From contig JAGHER010000109.1 of the NCBI GenBank assembly GCA_017889125.1, forward strand, positions 1-48,226: a stretch of 48,226 bases of DNA, given 5' to 3'. Positions 35,647-44,321 of the stretch are shown piece by piece. The notes below the pieces were generated by a model, which was given only the letters and a program-made list of their open reading frames with translations, was not told the DNA's origin and searched no databases. Both the position numbers and the translations under genes were made by a program. The stretch's first letter is position 1; every line of letters starts with the position of its first letter. The stretch is from Lachnospiraceae bacterium. GTDB taxonomy: Bacteria > Bacillota > Clostridia > Lachnospirales > Lachnospiraceae.

Positions 35647-36576
35647 ATGCATGGAATAACGGTTACAGAAATGATTAAAAAGATGAAACTGGAGAACAAG
35701 ACCCCTGAGCTGAATACCGACAATACTGTTCTGCCCCATCCGGAGGTGAACCGTCCGGCGCTGCAGCTGGCGGGCTTTTTTGAACATTTTGACAGCGAGC
35801 GGGTGCAGATCATCGGCCGTGTGGAGCGGGCCTACGTATCCACCCTGTCTCAGGCCAGAAAGCTGGAGATTTTTGACCGGCTTCTTTCCAGCAAGATTCC
35901 CTGCCTGGTGTACTGCCATGATATGGAGCCGGATGAGGATATCCTTGCCCTGGCCATTCATTACAGCGTGCCGGTGCTGGTTTCCAAAAAGACCACTTCC
36001 GACTTTATGGCAGAGCTAATCCGGTGGCTGAAGGCCAAGCTGGCCCCCTGCATCAGTATTCACGGTGTTTTGGTGGACGTATTCGGTGAGGGCGTGCTGA
36101 TTATGGGTGAGAGCGGCATCGGAAAGAGCGAGGCAGCTTTAGAGTTAATTAAGCGCGGCCACCGTCTGGTTACGGATGATGTGGTGGAGATCCGCAAGGT
36201 CAGCGACGAGACTCTGGTGGGAAGCGCGCCGGATATCACCAAGCATTTCATCGAGCTGCGGGGCATCGGCATTATCGACGTGAAGGCCCTGTTCGGTGTG
36301 GAGAGCGTAAAGGATACTCAGTCCATCGACATGGTCATCAAGCTGGAGGACTGGAACAAGGATAAGGAATACGACCGGCTGGGTCTGGAGGATCAGTACA
36401 CGGAGTTTCTCGGGAACCAGGTGGTATGCCATTCCCTGCCCATCCGTCCGGGACGGAATCTGGCAGTCATCGTAGAGACGGCGGCCATCAATTACCGCCA
36501 GAAGAAGATGGGCTACAATGCCGCCCAGGAGCTTTACAACCGGGTACAGGCAAACCTGAATAAACGGAGCCTCTAA
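35647..36576 (+). CDS. hprK: HPr kinase/phosphorylase
   Basis: GVLVDVFGEGVLIMGESGIGKSEAALELIKRGHRLVTDDVVEIRK; IELRGIGIIDVKALFG. Confidence 0.96.
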   Translation: MHGITVTEMIKKMKLENKTPELNTDNTVLPHPEVNRPALQLAGFFEHFDSERVQIIGRVERAYVSTLSQARKLEIFDRLLSSKIPCLVYCHDMEPDEDILALAIHYSVPVLVSKKTTSDFMAELIRWLKAKLAPCISIHGVLVDVFGEGVLIMGESGIGKSEAALELIKRGHRLVTDDVVEIRKVSDETLVGSAPDITKHFIELRGIGIIDVKALFGVESVKDTQSIDMVIKLEDWNKDKEYDRLGLEDQYTEFLGNQVVCHSLPIRPGRNLAVIVETAAINYRQKKMGYNAAQELYNRVQANLNKRSL

Positions 36577-36616
36577 AGGATAAGATAGAGAAGAATGATG
36601 CAGGAGAGAAGTGCGT

Positions 36617-37540
36617 ATGAGCAGGCAGTTAGATGAAGTGTTGCGGGGCATCCTGGGAAATGACCGGGTGCTGCGGGATGAACCCATGAAGAATCACACC
36701 ACATTCCGCGTAGGAGGGCCTGCCAGGTATTTCGTTTCCCCAAAAGACAGCCGGGAGCTGGCGGCGGTGCTGGATGCCTGCCGAAGGGACGGCTCTCTCT
36801 GGTTTATCCTGGGAAATGGAAGCAATCTTTTAGTCAGCGACCGGGGCTTTTCCGGCACGGTGGTGGATATGGGAAAGGGCTTTACCTCCATTCGGGTGGA
36901 GGGGGAGCGGATCTTTGCCGGAGCAGGCCTTCTGCTGTCCCAGATCGCCCGAAAGGCTTTAGAGGCCGGGCTTTCCGGCCTGGAATTCGCTGCCGGTATT
37001 CCCGGAAGCCTGGGAGGCGCTGTGGTGATGAATGCAGGCGCTTACGGCTCGGAGATGAAGGATGTGCTGGAGTCTGTCCTTGTGCTTACCCCGGAAGGGA
37101 AGGAGCAGGAGATTTCCGCCGGAGAGCTGGAACTTGGCTATCGCACCAGTGCGGTGCTTAAGCGGGGCTATGTGGTCCTTGGGGCCTCCTTCTTTCTTAA
37201 GCCTGCGCCCAGGGAGCAGATCCGGGCCAGGATGGATGAGCTGGCTGCGGCCAGGCGGGAAAAGCAGCCCTTGGAATACCCCAGCGCCGGAAGTACCTTC
37301 AAGCGGCCGGAGGGGTATTTTGCCGGAAAGCTGATCCAGGATGCGGGCCTTAAGGGCTACCGCCAGGGAGACGCCCAGGTTTCCGAAAAGCACAGCGGCT
37401 TTGTCATCAATCGCGGGCAGGCCTCTGCCGCCGATGTGATGGGCGTCTGCCGCCATGTATCCGACACGGTTTATGCCCAGACCGGCGTAAGGCTGGAGAT
37501 GGAATTAAAGACCCTGGGCGATTTTTCTGAGGAATCATAA
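36617..37540 (+). CDS. murB: UDP-N-acetylmuramate dehydrogenase
   Basis: NHTTFRVGGPARYF, LGNGSNLLVSDRGF, GLEFAAGIPGSLGGAVVMNAGAYG, PSAGSTFKRPEGYFAGKLIQDAGLKG. Confidence 0.96.
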   Translation: MSRQLDEVLRGILGNDRVLRDEPMKNHTTFRVGGPARYFVSPKDSRELAAVLDACRRDGSLWFILGNGSNLLVSDRGFSGTVVDMGKGFTSIRVEGERIFAGAGLLLSQIARKALEAGLSGLEFAAGIPGSLGGAVVMNAGAYGSEMKDVLESVLVLTPEGKEQEISAGELELGYRTSAVLKRGYVVLGASFFLKPAPREQIRARMDELAAARREKQPLEYPSAGSTFKRPEGYFAGKLIQDAGLKGYRQGDAQVSEKHSGFVINRGQASAADVMGVCRHVSDTVYAQTGVRLEMELKTLGDFSEES

Positions 37541-37561: not shown

Positions 37562-38422
37562 ATGAAGCTTGTGATTATAACAGGAATGTCAGGGGCGGGG
37601 AAGACCCAGGCCTTAAAGATGCTGGAGGATATGGGCTATTACTGCGTGGATAATCTTCCCATTCCCCTGGTGGATAAATTTGCGGAGCTGATTCAAAGCA
37701 GCACCGGCGATATTCAGAAGGTGGCTCTGGGCATCGATATCCGCAGCGGGGAGGAGCTTCCCCAGCTGGAGGATGTGCTGGAGCGGTGGAAGGCAGAGGC
37801 AGTGCCCTTTAAGGTGCTGTTTCTGGACGCCTCCACGGAGGTGCTCATTAAGCGCTACAAGGAGACCAGGAGAAAGCATCCCCTGGCCGGTGCAGGCCGG
37901 ATCGAGAGGGGGATCGAGCTGGAGAGAGAACGGCTAATCTTTCTGAAAAAATCTGCCGATTACATTATCGATACCAGTCATCTGCTTACCAGAGAGCTTC
38001 GCCAGGAGTTAGAGAAGATCTTTGTGGATAACCAGGAATACCGGAACCTTTACATAACGGTTTTGTCCTTTGGATTCAAGTACGGCATTCCCTCCGATGC
38101 AGATCTGGTCTTTGATGTGCGCTTCCTTCCCAATCCCTACTATGAGGAGGCGCTGCGGGCCAGAACCGGGGAGGAAAAGGATGTGCAGGACTTTGTGAAG
38201 CAGGGCGGCACGGCAGAGATTTTCCTGGAAAAGCTTTACGATATGCTGGAATTTCTCATCCCCAATTATATCCTGGAGGGGAAGAATCAGCTGGTTATCG
38301 CCATTGGCTGCACAGGAGGAAAGCACCGGTCCGTAACCATCGCCAGAGCCATTTATGAGCGGCTTCTGGCTCATCCGGAGTACGGCATCAAGATCTTCCA
38401 CCGGGATATTGAAAACGGATAA
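37562..38422 (+). CDS. rapZ: RNase adapter RapZ / YvcJ-type nucleotide-binding protein
   Basis: LVIITGMSGAGKTQALKMLEDMGYYCVDNLPIPLV; FDVRFLPNPYYEEALRARTGEEKDV; AIGCTGGKHRSVTIA. Confidence 0.96.
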   Translation: MKLVIITGMSGAGKTQALKMLEDMGYYCVDNLPIPLVDKFAELIQSSTGDIQKVALGIDIRSGEELPQLEDVLERWKAEAVPFKVLFLDASTEVLIKRYKETRRKHPLAGAGRIERGIELERERLIFLKKSADYIIDTSHLLTRELRQELEKIFVDNQEYRNLYITVLSFGFKYGIPSDADLVFDVRFLPNPYYEEALRARTGEEKDVQDFVKQGGTAEIFLEKLYDMLEFLIPNYILEGKNQLVIAIGCTGGKHRSVTIARAIYERLLAHPEYGIKIFHRDIENG

Positions 38423-38441
38423 GCGGAAAGGATGGAAAGCT

Positions 38442-39401
38442 GTGTCATATGCCTCAAAGGTGAAGGATGAGCTGTCGCGGCAGGTGCCTGCCGCAAGGCA
38501 CTGCCAGATTGCGGAGATTGCGGCCATTATCAGCATGTGCGGCCGGATTTCCATTTCCGCCGACAACCGGTACGGGATCAAAATCCATACGGAAAATGTG
38601 GCAGTTGCAAGAAAGTACTTTACATTATTGAGAAAAACATTTAATATAGTTACGGACGTTTCGATCCGGCAGAATTCATATCTGAAGAAAAGCCGGACAT
38701 ATTCTGTGGTGATAAAGGAGCACGAGGACGCCCTGCGTGTCCTTATGGCTGCCAAGCTGATCGGGGAAGACGGAGAGGTTGGGGAAAATCTTTCCGTGAA
38801 GAAGAATCTGATCGTGAAGCAGGCCTGCTGCCGGCGCGCGTTTATCCGCGGCGCCTTTCTTGCAGCCGGCTCCATCAGCAATCCCGAGAAATCCTACCAT
38901 TTTGAAATAACCTGCGCTACAGAGGAGAAAGCCAGACAGCTGCAGGCCATCATCGGTACCTTTGGCCTGGATGCCAGGATTGTAGTACGGAAAAAGTATC
39001 ACGTAGTCTACATGAAGGAAGGCAGCCAGATCGTGGATATCCTCAACGTAATGGAGGCGCCGGTTTCCCTGATGGAGTTAGAGAATGTGCGGATTCTGAA
39101 GGAGATGCGGGGGCAGGTGAACCGCCAGGTGAACTGCGAGACAGCCAATATCAATAAAACCGTTTCAGCCGCCGTAAAGCAGCTGAAGGATATTGAATAC
39201 ATCCGTGACACCATAGGTCTTTCCAAACTGCCGGAAGGTCTGGAGGATATGGCCAGGCTGCGGCTGGAAAGACGCGAAGCAACGTTAAAGGAGCTGGGAG
39301 AGGCGCTTGACCCTCCCGTAGGGAAATCCGGGGTGAACCACCGGCTGAGGAAGCTGAGTGCCATCGCTGAGGCCCTGCGCGAAAAAGATATGGAAGGGTA
39401 A
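38442..39401 (+). CDS. whiA: DNA-binding protein WhiA
   Basis: GTG start (VSYASKVKDELSRQ); LAGLIDADG-like N-terminal, RRAFIRGAFLAAGSISNPEKSYHFE; C-terminal HTH LKELGEALDPPVGKSGVNHRLRKL. Confidence 0.95.
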   Translation: MSYASKVKDELSRQVPAARHCQIAEIAAIISMCGRISISADNRYGIKIHTENVAVARKYFTLLRKTFNIVTDVSIRQNSYLKKSRTYSVVIKEHEDALRVLMAAKLIGEDGEVGENLSVKKNLIVKQACCRRAFIRGAFLAAGSISNPEKSYHFEITCATEEKARQLQAIIGTFGLDARIVVRKKYHVVYMKEGSQIVDILNVMEAPVSLMELENVRILKEMRGQVNRQVNCETANINKTVSAAVKQLKDIEYIRDTIGLSKLPEGLEDMARLRLERREATLKELGEALDPPVGKSGVNHRLRKLSAIAEALREKDMEG

Positions 39402-39415
39402 AGAGGAGGATAATT

Positions 39416-39670
39416 ATGATTAAGAAGACGGTTGTGGTTGAACTCTCGTCCGGTTTGGAGGCTAGACCCATTGCGATGCTGGTGCAGGTAGCCAGCCAGT
39501 ACGAAAGCAAGATTTACGTGGAATGCGATTCCAAGCGGGTAAATGCCAAGAGCATCATGGGCATGATGACTCTGGGCCTGGCAGCAGGAGAGGAGCTGGT
39601 GATCACTGCTGACGGCAGCGATGAGCAGCAGGCCATTTCTGATATTGAAAAATATTTAAAGAATAATTAA
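39416..39670 (+). CDS. HPr family phosphocarrier protein, His15-to-Glu variant (Crh-like)
   Basis: MIKKTVVVELSSGLEARPIAMLVQ...VNAKSIMGMMTLGLAAGEELVI; E15 in place of catalytic His, S46 retained. Confidence 0.93.
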   Translation: MIKKTVVVELSSGLEARPIAMLVQVASQYESKIYVECDSKRVNAKSIMGMMTLGLAAGEELVITADGSDEQQAISDIEKYLKNN

Positions 39671-39778: not shown

Positions 39779-42700
39779 ATGGCGTTTACGCATCTGCATG
39801 TCCATACGGAGTACAGCCTGTTGGACGGATCCAGCAAGATTAAGGAGCTGACCGCCCGGGCAAAGGAGCTGGGGATGGACAGCCTGGCCATTACCGATCA
39901 CGGCGTCATGTACGGCGTGATTGATTTTTATAAGGCCGCCCGGGAAAACGGCATCAAGCCCATTATCGGCTGCGAGGTGTATGTGGCTCCTGGCTCCCGG
40001 TTTGACCGGGAGAATGTCAGCGGCGAGGACCGCTACTATCATCTGATTCTTCTGGCAGAAAATAATACCGGCTATCAGAATCTGATGAAGATTGTCTCAA
40101 AGGGCTTCGTGGACGGCTTTTACTATAAGCCGCGGGTGGATTATGAGGTGCTGTCCGCCTACCATGAGGGCATTATCGCCTTAAGCGCCTGCCTGGCTGG
40201 TGAGGTCCAGCGGAATCTGGAGCGTGGGCTTTACGAGGAGGCGAAAAAGTCGGCCCTCCGGTACGAGGAGATCTTTGGAAAGGGGAATTTCTTCCTGGAG
40301 CTGCAGGATCACGGGATTCCGGCCCAAAGATTAGTGAACCAGGGTCTGATGCGCTTAAGCCGGGAGCTTTCCATGGAGCTGGTGGCGACCAATGACTCTC
40401 ACTACATTTACGCGGACGATGCCCAGGCCCATGACATCCTTCTCTGCATCCAGACGGGAAAAAAGGTCACCGATGAAAACCGGATGCGCTACGAGGGGGG
40501 CCAGTATTACCTGAAATCCGAGGAGGAGATGCGCAGCCTCTTCCCCTATGCGCCCCAGGCTCTGGAGAATACGGCAAAGATTGCCGCCCGCTGCAATGTG
40601 GAGATCGAATTCGGCGTGACGAAGCTGCCGAAATTCCAGGTGCCGGAGGGAGAAACCTCCTGGTCCTATTTAAACCGCCTTTGCTTAGAGGGTCTAAACC
40701 GCCGCTATCCTCAGGATGACGGCACCTTAAAGGCCAGGCTGGATTATGAGCTTGACGTTATCCATACCATGGGGTATGTGGATTACTTTCTGATTGTGTG
40801 GGATTTCATCCATTTTGCCCGGTCACAGGGGATCCCTGTAGGGCCGGGAAGAGGCTCTGCGGCGGGAAGCATCGTGGCCTACTGTCTGGAGATCACCAAT
40901 ATCGATCCTGTACGCTATGACCTTCTTTTTGAGCGTTTCCTGAACCCGGAGCGGGTGTCCATGCCCGATATCGACATTGACTTCTGCTTCGAGCGGCGCC
41001 AGGAGGTAATCGACTACGTGGTGCGCAAGTACGGGAAGGATCAGGTGGTGCAGATCGTCACCTTCGGTACCCTGGCGGCCAAGGGCGTAATCCGGGATGT
41101 AGGGCGGGTGCTGGACATGCCCTACGCTCAGTGCGACTCCATCGCAAAGATGGTGCCCAATGACCTGGGAATGACCCTTGACCGGGCCTTAAAGGAAAGC
41201 CCTGACCTGCGGAACGCCTACAACAATGACAGCCAGGTAAAGTACCTGATTGACATGTCAAAGCGCCTGGAGGGCCTTCCCCGGCACACCTCCATGCACG
41301 CTGCAGGGGTGGTCATCAGCCGTACCTCGGTGGACGAATACGTTCCCTTAAGCCGGGCGGCAGACGGCACCATTACCACCCAGTTTACCATGACCACCTT
41401 AGAGGAGCTGGGCCTTCTTAAGATGGACTTCCTGGGCCTTCGGACGCTGACGGTAATCAGCAATGCGGTCCGCCAGGTGGAAAAAAATCACGGTGTCCAT
41501 CTGGACATGGATCACATTGATTATGACGATAAACAGGTGTTGGAATCCATCGGCACGGGAAAGACCGAGGGCATCTTCCAGTTAGAAAGCGGCGGCATGA
41601 AGGCCTTCATGAAGGAGCTTAAGCCGGAGAATCTGGAGGATGTCATTGCCGGAATTTCCCTCTACCGCCCCGGCCCTATGGACTTTATCCCCAAGTACCT
41701 GAAGGGGAAAAATGACCGCAGCTCCATCACCTATGACTGCCCCCAGTTAGAGCACATCTTAGGCCCCACCTACGGCTGCATCGTCTATCAGGAGCAGGTT
41801 ATGCAGATCGTCCGGGATCTGGCTGGCTATACTATGGGCCGAAGCGATCTGGTGCGCCGGGCTATGTCCAAGAAGAAGGCCTCGGTGATGGAAAAGGAAC
41901 GGCAGAATTTCGTCTACGGAAACCCGGAAGAAGGGGTGGCCGGATGCATTGCCAATGGCATTGATGAGAAGACGGCCAATACCATTTATGACGAGATGAT
42001 TGATTTCGCCAAGTACGCCTTCAATAAGTCCCATGCCGCCTGCTACGCGGTGGTGGCTTACCAGACGGCTTACTTAAAATACTATTATCCCCTGGAATTT
42101 ATGGCGGCGCTGATGACCTCCGTCATGGACAATGCAGGGAAGACGGCAGAGTATATCCTTACCTGCCGCCAGATGGGCATATCCATCCTGCCCCCGGATA
42201 TCAATGAGGGAGAGAGCGGTTTCTCCGTATCCGGCGGGGCTATCCGCTACGGTCTGTCCGCCATCAAGAGCGTAGGCACCTCCGTGGTAGATGCCATCGT
42301 GACGGAGCGGCAGCAAAATGGGCTGTTCACCTCCCTGGAGGATTTTGTGGAGCGGATGACCAATAAGGAAGCCAACAAAAAGACCATGGAGAATTTCATT
42401 AAATCCGGCGCCCTGGATTCCCTTCCGGGAAACCGCCGCCAGAAGATGTTCGTGATGCCGGAGCTTTTAGAGCAGAAGAATAAGGAGAAAAAGACCTCTA
42501 TGGCCGGGCAGATGAGCCTTTTTGACTTTGCCGACGAGGAAACAAAGGATGATTTCCGCATCACCATGCCTAACGTGGCGGAATACCCCAAAGACGAGCT
42601 TCTTGCCTTTGAGAAGGAGACTCTGGGCATCTACGTCAGCGGCCATCCCATGGACGCCTACGAGACCATGTGGCGGAAGAATATCACTGCCACTACGGCA

Positions 42701-43261
42701 GACTTTGTGGTGGATGAGGAGACGGACCGGGCGGCGGTGACAGACGGCACCTACGTCACCGTGGGCGGCATGGTAGCAGGAAAGGTGGTAAAAACCACCA
42801 GAACCGGCCAGATGATGGCCTTCATTTCCCTGGAGGATATGCTGGGCTCCGTGGAGGTGCTGGTTTTCCCGAAAATTTACGAAAGCCGCCGGGAGGTCTT
42901 TGCCCAGGACGAAAAGCTCTTTATCCAGGGAAGGGTTTCCTTGGGGGATGAGCCGGTGGGGAAGCTGATCTGCGAGCGGGTGATTCCCTTCCGGGAGGTG
43001 CCCAGGGAGCTGTGGCTCCAGTATGAGGATCTGGAGCATTACCGGGCAGGGGAGGCCGCGCTCTTAACCCTGTTAAAGGAAAAGGAAGGCAGGGATACGG
43101 TGGTCATTTATCTCAAGAAAGAAAAGGCAAAGAAAGTACTTCCAGCCAACTGGAGAGTGGAAGCAGACGGAGAGCTGTTGGATAAGTTGACGAAAATACT
43201 TAGTGAAAAAAATATCAAGCTGGTAGAAAAAGGTATTGAAAAGCAAAAGAAAATGATATAA
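39779..43261 (+). CDS. dnaE: DNA polymerase III subunit alpha
   Basis: PHP domain FTHLHVHTEYSLLDGSSKI; PGRGSAAGSIVAYCL; PDIDIDFCFERR; C-terminal OB-fold; 1160 aa. Confidence 0.97.
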   Translation: MAFTHLHVHTEYSLLDGSSKIKELTARAKELGMDSLAITDHGVMYGVIDFYKAARENGIKPIIGCEVYVAPGSRFDRENVSGEDRYYHLILLAENNTGYQNLMKIVSKGFVDGFYYKPRVDYEVLSAYHEGIIALSACLAGEVQRNLERGLYEEAKKSALRYEEIFGKGNFFLELQDHGIPAQRLVNQGLMRLSRELSMELVATNDSHYIYADDAQAHDILLCIQTGKKVTDENRMRYEGGQYYLKSEEEMRSLFPYAPQALENTAKIAARCNVEIEFGVTKLPKFQVPEGETSWSYLNRLCLEGLNRRYPQDDGTLKARLDYELDVIHTMGYVDYFLIVWDFIHFARSQGIPVGPGRGSAAGSIVAYCLEITNIDPVRYDLLFERFLNPERVSMPDIDIDFCFERRQEVIDYVVRKYGKDQVVQIVTFGTLAAKGVIRDVGRVLDMPYAQCDSIAKMVPNDLGMTLDRALKESPDLRNAYNNDSQVKYLIDMSKRLEGLPRHTSMHAAGVVISRTSVDEYVPLSRAADGTITTQFTMTTLEELGLLKMDFLGLRTLTVISNAVRQVEKNHGVHLDMDHIDYDDKQVLESIGTGKTEGIFQLESGGMKAFMKELKPENLEDVIAGISLYRPGPMDFIPKYLKGKNDRSSITYDCPQLEHILGPTYGCIVYQEQVMQIVRDLAGYTMGRSDLVRRAMSKKKASVMEKERQNFVYGNPEEGVAGCIANGIDEKTANTIYDEMIDFAKYAFNKSHAACYAVVAYQTAYLKYYYPLEFMAALMTSVMDNAGKTAEYILTCRQMGISILPPDINEGESGFSVSGGAIRYGLSAIKSVGTSVVDAIVTERQQNGLFTSLEDFVERMTNKEANKKTMENFIKSGALDSLPGNRRQKMFVMPELLEQKNKEKKTSMAGQMSLFDFADEETKDDFRITMPNVAEYPKDELLAFEKETLGIYVSGHPMDAYETMWRKNITATTADFVVDEETDRAAVTDGTYVTVGGMVAGKVVKTTRTGQMMAFISLEDMLGSVEVLVFPKIYESRREVFAQDEKLFIQGRVSLGDEPVGKLICERVIPFREVPRELWLQYEDLEHYRAGEAALLTLLKEKEGRDTVVIYLKKEKAKKVLPANWRVEADGELLDKLTKILSEKNIKLVEKGIEKQKKMI

Positions 43262-43346: not shown

Positions 43347-44321
43347 ATGGCAAAGTCAGTAAAAACCATTGGCGTTTTAACTAGCGGCGGAGATGCGCCG
43401 GGTATGAACGCTGCGATCCGGGGAGTTGTGCGTACAGCGATTCACCAGGGATTAAAGGTGAAGGGAATTATGCGTGGTTACGCAGGACTTCTTCAGGAAG
43501 AGATCGTGGATATGGACAGCACCAGCGTATCGGATATTATCCATCGGGGCGGAACCATTCTTTACACTGCCAGATGTATGGAATTTACCACGCCGGAGGG
43601 CCAGGAGCAGGGCGCAGAGATCTGCCGCAAGCACGGCATTGACGGTATCGTGGTTATCGGAGGAGACGGTTCCTTCCGCGGCGCAGGAAAGCTGGCTGCA
43701 CTGGGAATCAACACCATTGGTGTTCCCGGCACCATCGATCTGGATATTGCCTGCACCGATTACACCATTGGCTTTGATACGGCAGTAAATACGGCCATGG
43801 AAGCCATCGATAAGATCCGTGATACCTCTACCTCCCATGAGCGCTGCTCTATCATTGAGGTTATGGGACGGAACGCAGGCTACATTGCCTTATGGTGCGG
43901 TATCGCAAACGGCGCGGAGGATATCCTTCTTCCGGAGCGCTATGACGGCGATGAGCAGGCCCTCATCAACCGGGTAATCGAGAACCGGAAGCGGGGCAAG
44001 AAGCACAACATTATCATCAATGCGGAGGGCATTGGCCACTCTGCTTCCATGGCCAGACGAATCGAGGCGGCTACAGGCATCGAGACCAGAGCCACCATCT
44101 TAGGCCACATGCAGCGGGGCGGTACGCCTACCTGCAAGGACAGAGTATACGCCTCCATCATGGGCTCCAAGGCAGCTCTCCTTCTGGCTGAAGGAAAGAG
44201 CAACCGCCTGGTAGCCTATAAGAATGGCGATTACGTGGATTTCGATATTCAGGAAGCGCTGAATATGAAGAAGGATATTCAGGAAGATCAGTACGAGATT
44301 GCCAAGATGCTGGTTCGGTAA
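43347..44321 (+). CDS. pfkA: ATP-dependent 6-phosphofructokinase
   Basis: KTIGVLTSGGDAPGMNAAIRGVVR; GGDGSFRGAGKL; IEVMGRNAGYIALWCGIANGAE. Confidence 0.97.
   Translation: MAKSVKTIGVLTSGGDAPGMNAAIRGVVRTAIHQGLKVKGIMRGYAGLLQEEIVDMDSTSVSDIIHRGGTILYTARCMEFTTPEGQEQGAEICRKHGIDGIVVIGGDGSFRGAGKLAALGINTIGVPGTIDLDIACTDYTIGFDTAVNTAMEAIDKIRDTSTSHERCSIIEVMGRNAGYIALWCGIANGAEDILLPERYDGDEQALINRVIENRKRGKKHNIIINAEGIGHSASMARRIEAATGIETRATILGHMQRGGTPTCKDRVYASIMGSKAALLLAEGKSNRLVAYKNGDYVDFDIQEALNMKKDIQEDQYEIAKMLVR

Follow-up and report, generated by a model that had tools for sequence, protein, structure and literature searches.

In B. subtilis, both CcpA and methylglyoxal synthase (MgsA) are targets of the HPr-like protein Crh (PMC4591507; PMC10714963), which controls the latter enzyme and whose gene, crh, shares one operon with whiA (PMC10714963). 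Crh homologues accompanied by HprK have also been reported in Clostridia, namely in T. saccharolyticum and in C. cellulolyticum (Ccel_0806), where the homologue occurs without a PTS HPr; the available portions of these reports give neither residue 15, nor whiA linkage, nor a Glu15 clade (PMC3526391; PMC3656788). According to the T. saccharolyticum study, unphosphorylated His15 of HPr contributes directly to CcpA binding, which is blocked by His15 phosphorylation, and an HPr carrying Asp15 relieved repression, an effect for which the authors expect disturbed CcpA binding (PMC3526391). For C. difficile, authors have suggested that HPr may not be the sole substrate of HprK (PMC9674922).

The present analysis concerns an HPr-family gene from the draft genome of a Lachnospiraceae bacterium (G000), carried on a stretch of 48,226 nucleotides, hereafter referred to as the window. 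We regard its product as probably a Crh-type, PTS-incapable regulatory HPr, predicted to be a substrate of HprK and to be read out via Ser46.

The HPr gene and its genomic context

The features of the window relevant to this protein are the following:

35647..36576, + strand: hprK, the presumed Ser46 kinase (Pfam PF07475 and PF02603)
36611..37540, + strand: murB (Pfam)
37562..38422, + strand: rapZ (yvcJ), followed by whiA without glmR (Pfam PF03668 and PF22740)
38442..39401, + strand: whiA, directly upstream of the HPr gene (Pfam PF02650, PF14527 and PF10298)
39404..39409, + strand: AGGAGG, Shine-Dalgarno site of the HPr gene (sequence)
39416..39670, + strand: Crh-type HPr of 84 amino acids with Glu15 and Ser46 (sequence, relatives, AlphaFold2 model, fold match and Pfam)
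39458..39460, + strand: codon 15, GAG (Glu), where the PTS histidine is expected (sequence)
39551..39553, + strand: codon 46, Ser, the HprK phosphorylation site by homology, within NAKSIMG (sequence; Ser in every scored whiA-linked relative)
39779..43261, + strand: dnaE, downstream of the HPr gene (read from the ORF translation)
43347..44321, + strand: pfkA (Pfam PF00365)

A gap of 14 bp separates the stop codon of whiA from the HPr gene, and positions 39416-39670 (+) translate to MIKKTVVVELSSGLEARPIAMLVQVASQYESKIYVECDSKRVNAKSIMGMMTLGLAAGEELVITADGSDEQQAISDIEKYLKNN, followed by the stop. Glu15 (GAG, 39458-39460) and Ser46, both pointed out in the original prediction, are seen in this translation, and the active-site loop reads SSGLEARP; His15, which PtsH requires to receive phosphate from EI, is absent from this protein. 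The match to PF00381 reaches 103.9 bits (Pfam), and the AlphaFold2 model (mean pLDDT 95.4) follows the strand and helix order of HPr, with residue 15 lying directly before helix 16-26 and residue 46 directly before helix 47-51.

The gene order uvrC-hprK-murB-rapZ-whiA-HPr-dnaE-pfkA, as originally proposed, was borne out by Pfam for hprK, murB, rapZ, whiA and pfkA, and by ORF translations for dnaE and for uvrC, which is also a neighbour in the cluster; hprK is located three genes upstream of the HPr gene. The pfkA product makes FBP, an activator of HprK in B. subtilis. Among Lachnospirales relatives, whiA was present in the fetched stretch for 105 of 106 HPr loci, and dnaE was found 3' of HPr in 41 of the 72 relatives with full flanks. 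The cluster departs from the crh locus of B. subtilis, in which glmR (yvcK) lies directly upstream of whiA, in that it includes hprK, murB, dnaE and pfkA and in that no glmR was found between rapZ and whiA in the window (38422-38442); the corresponding gap is likewise short in 74 of 75 relatives, the remaining locus having 1178 bp. Regarding the suggestion that the cluster links carbon signalling to the cell envelope and WhiA, the gene order is indeed shared, which does not in itself constitute evidence of interaction.

Among solved structures, the best matches were to B. subtilis Crh by both fold (TM 0.96) and sequence (E 4e-20), the closest relatives including the CcpA-Crh complex 1zvv. The two proteins have in common the HPr fold, the lack of His15 and a Ser46 within NAKSIMG, as well as a single HprK, a separate ptsH and a gene directly 3' of whiA. 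They are about 44% identical and differ at residue 15, where the window protein has Glu and Crh has Gln, a residue found in 2 of 106 Lachnospirales loci and in 6 of the 21 loci of the class-wide sample described below; moreover, unlike in B. subtilis, no convincing CcpA was identified in this genome or in close relatives. NF010354 (PRK13782, Crh) was the best-scoring NCBIfam equivalog, but with 99.3 bits against a cut-off of 123. Since the protein lacks Gln15, falls below the nearest NCBIfam cut-off and has no convincing CcpA partner in its genome, it is described here as Crh-type and is not formally classed as Crh. A tree of HPr sequences including Bacillus Crh (83 columns) was poorly resolved and open at its base, and it does not prove orthology with Crh; constraining the 56 Lachnospirales rows to one clade was compatible with the data (p-AU 0.52), without proving such a clade.

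Eight PF00381 matches, including the window protein, were detected in this draft of 266 contigs. A ptsH gene encoding an HPr with His15 (GLHLRPA) and Ser46 is located directly upstream of ptsI, the only EI gene, and a second His15 HPr is also encoded (canonical HPrs at C132:21090 and C128:18669). The existence of another, His15-bearing HPr, which had been proposed as a check, was therefore confirmed. EIIA and EIICB genes are present too, the genome is PTS-positive, and the possibility that the window protein is its last remaining HPr was ruled out by the separate ptsH-ptsI pair. A single HprK was found, the one encoded in the window. The canonical HPrs share with the window protein the fold, the GL-x-x-RP loop and Ser46, but have His15 in place of Glu15 and, as helix-2 motif, AKSVLSV or AKSVLNV in place of AKSIMGMM; the window protein, in turn, is not encoded beside ptsI. 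Three short HPr-like proteins of the genome keep Ser46 and have no GLH.

Two further matches were of a different kind. The HPr of an antiterminator-EIIA-HPr-EIICB operon (L004, C159:4079-4306) carries His15 but Asp46 (GKDIME); judging from its residues, it is the reverse of the window protein, a putative phosphocarrier that lacks the HprK site. A diverged HPr-like protein (L006, C262:3492-3686) keeps neither phosphorylation site: RSARPLP replaces the loop, and NAKDYNQ stands where Ser46 would be.

Residue 15 and Ser46 among Clostridia

Residue 15 was aligned, as the original prediction had proposed, across HPr proteins adjacent to whiA. In 106 Lachnospirales HPr loci, collected from a search of named genomes and from relatives, with some species in both sets, it was E in 101, D in 3, Q in 2 and H in none, while residue 46 was Ser in all 106. 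Reduction to a non-redundant set of 79 rows (<92% identity) gave E 74, D 3 and Q 2, with Glu encoded by GAG in 37 rows and by GAA in 37; the residue being kept while its codon drifts, Glu15 is under purifying selection. Glu15 is regarded as lineage-fixed in Lachnospirales. In the same loop, Arg17 and Pro18 are retained as well, which argues for a preserved surface. Glu15 was also observed in the whiA-linked HPrs of G012 and G015.

In a survey of the class Clostridia, 130 whiA places were inspected, and an HPr gene was found directly downstream in 21, of which three belong to Lachnospiraceae. Residue 15 was mixed in these 21 proteins (Q 6, H 5, E 3, K 2, together with T, S, Y, R and N), whereas Ser46 was present in 21 of 21. 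As a control, the best HPr-profile matches were taken from 30 genomes of the class in which no HPr adjoins whiA; 27 of these matches have His at residue 15, two have Tyr and one has Arg. His15 therefore characterises 27 of 30 HPrs not linked to whiA against 5 of 21 linked ones (Fisher p 3e-6, kinship ignored), indicating that whiA linkage accompanies the loss of His15, with Ser46 unchanged. The free variation of residue 15 outside Lachnospirales makes it unlikely that an acid is needed generally, and what matters more generally seems to be a residue other than His.

The presence of the PTS was examined in a set of 55 genomes, almost all of which encode a whiA-linked HPr; no EI was detected in 23, and HprK was present in 53. 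Five Lachnospirales genomes (G115, G030, G031, G032 and G034) have a whiA-linked HPr and HprK with no EI detected. In G031, no other HPr match was found, and the loop of the whiA-linked protein has decayed to DHEFEL, with NAKSIMGMM intact; in G034, the aligned position 15 is Ile and the loop carries an indel. G030 is a less clean case, as a His15 HPr is still present. The persistence of a whiA-linked HPr and HprK where EI is undetectable is as expected for an HprK substrate that does not depend on the PTS. In G029, which is 80% complete, both EI and HprK were undetected, and in G036 neither HPr nor HprK was found.

Other EI-negative genomes offered separate observations. The whiA-linked HPrs L179 (G067), L136 (G070) and L184 (G119) retain His15 although EI was undetected. 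In G014, also with no EI detected, the ptsH-type HPr (L427) reads GLQMHPAG, with Gln for His15, and an unlinked HPr (L428) combines a decayed loop with NMKSIMGM; the sequences of these two proteins suggest that His15 was lost after EI.

Output partner and meaning of Glu15

The original proposal of a Crh-like regulator in place of a PTS phosphocarrier is supported by the separate ptsH-ptsI pair, by the lack of His15 in whiA-linked relatives throughout Lachnospirales and by the persistence of some of these in genomes where EI is undetected. A protein acting just as Bacillus Crh does, with P-Ser46 serving as corepressor of a CcpA-type LacI regulator, would agree with the closest solved relative being Crh, including the 1zvv complex, and with the many LacI-family genes of G000 (18), but we consider it unlikely. 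None of the 27 genomes searched with TIGR01481 has a protein reaching its 442-bit cut-off, which was set for Bacilli and could miss a divergent CcpA; the best LacI-family match scored 180 bits in G000 and 295 in the best clostridial genome, and G137 and G034, both with a whiA-linked HPr, had no match whatever to this model. The CcpA C-terminal motif, for which one CcpA sequence served as reference and was used for this motif only, was absent from the five LacI proteins read of the 18 in G000. These searches suggest that canonical CcpA is absent from this genome; with no convincing CcpA present, the Bacillus mechanism is not simply transferable, and co-evolution at the CcpA contact site was set aside, there being no convincing CcpA to compare with. 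In addition, Glu15 itself is expected to weaken CcpA binding, because unphosphorylated His15 contributes directly to CcpA binding, and the Asp15 effect described in the T. saccharolyticum study is consistent with a protein for which CcpA is no longer a partner (PMC3526391).

Homologues of mgsA are present in this genome. In Lachnospirales, mgsA accompanies the whiA-linked HPr in 32 of 32 genomes, compared with 2 of 5 without it (p 0.001, kinship ignored, the genomes lacking both being small), whereas across the class the figures are 13 of 18 and 51 of 80 (p 0.59). As the association vanishes class-wide, MgsA was ruled out as a universal partner; its distribution makes it a fair candidate partner in Lachnospirales and not a general one.

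Three readings of Glu15 remain: a mimic of phosphohistidine, a residue of the helix start or fold, or part of a binding surface. As a permanent mimic of His15 phosphate, a reading raised in the original prediction, Glu15 would always signal an idle PTS to partners recognising His-P-HPr and leave Ser46 phosphorylation as the sole switch; the dominance of acidic residues in Lachnospirales (E 101 and D 3 of 106), the conservation of loop residues Arg17 and Pro18 and the use of Asp15 as a phosphomimetic in T. saccharolyticum (PMC3526391) are compatible with it. Nevertheless, this reading appears improbable, considering that other whiA-linked HPrs of Clostridia have Q, K, R, T, S, Y or N at this position, that His-P-HPr is known to act mostly by phosphoryl transfer, impossible for Glu, and that the protein persists without detectable EI, where no His-P-HPr would exist. 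A structural role is a good deal easier to accept, though still short of an even chance: once histidine had become dispensable, helix 16-26 would be stabilised by an acidic residue at its beginning, fixed by descent in Lachnospirales with no role of its own. The modelled position of residue 15 directly before this helix, the occurrence of Asp and Gln there and the wide variability outside Lachnospirales speak for this reading; against it, Glu occupies ~94% of rows despite divergence of up to half of the residues elsewhere in them, G13, L14, R17 and P18 are kept alongside it, suggesting a preserved surface, and the rest of the loop decays in the EI-less G031 and G034. A sequencing error, a pseudogene or a still active PTS phosphocarrier, to which the draft state of the genome (266 contigs) might lend some room, is extremely improbable: Glu15 occurs with both Glu codons in independent genomes, which rules out a sequencing or assembly error at codon 15, and in named isolates, the reading frame is uninterrupted and preceded by a Shine-Dalgarno site, and a complete His15 ptsH-ptsI pair is encoded elsewhere in the genome. 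With histidine no longer required, the most likely function of Glu15 is in a binding surface or at the beginning of helix 1.

For the Crh-type regulatory protein that we favour, HprK, stimulated by FBP, would phosphorylate Ser46 at high glycolytic flux and dephosphorylate it at low flux, and the phosphorylated and unphosphorylated forms would bind different partners. The lack of a convincing CcpA makes classical CcpA repression an improbable output, although this step is less certain. Control of methylglyoxal synthase, as by Crh of B. subtilis, would be a plausible but tentative output; another partner may be involved instead.

Candidate Ser46-only HPr proteins in Clostridia

A family of mini-HPrs of ~75-85 amino acids was found to be widespread in Clostridia (L385-L422 in other genomes), with three members in this genome:

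C258:9083-9265: mini-HPr L005
C130:8500-8604: mini-HPr L007
C180:10717-10854: mini-HPr L008

The active-site Gly-Leu-His is deleted in 41 of 41 mini-HPrs, and K45, S46, I47 and G49 are invariant, making them candidate PTS-incapable HprK substrates. A search of open-licence papers did not bring up any description of a Glu15 HPr from Lachnospiraceae or of a Glu15 clade, of free variation at HPr residue 15, or of loop-deleted mini-HPrs. This suggests that these three observations are new relative to the literature found, while Crh homologues in Clostridia were already known.

Lachnospirales are dominant fermenters of the gut, and their sensing of glycolytic flux is poorly known. Clostridia may possess a PTS-independent and largely CcpA-independent HprK network with several Ser46-only HPr outputs, comprising the whiA-linked HPr and the mini-HPrs, a proposal that we advance with some reserve. 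If it is true, one HprK in this genome would serve four or more HPr-like proteins that have Ser46 but no His15, each with its own partner. The contrast between a variable residue 15 and an invariant Ser46 shows the two functions of HPr separated by nature, and the linkage with whiA and rapZ bears on why whiA adjoins a carbon-flux protein in both Bacilli and Clostridia. An HprK substrate that outlives the PTS, with no obvious CcpA, would provide a direct route to the real targets of HprK in Lachnospirales.
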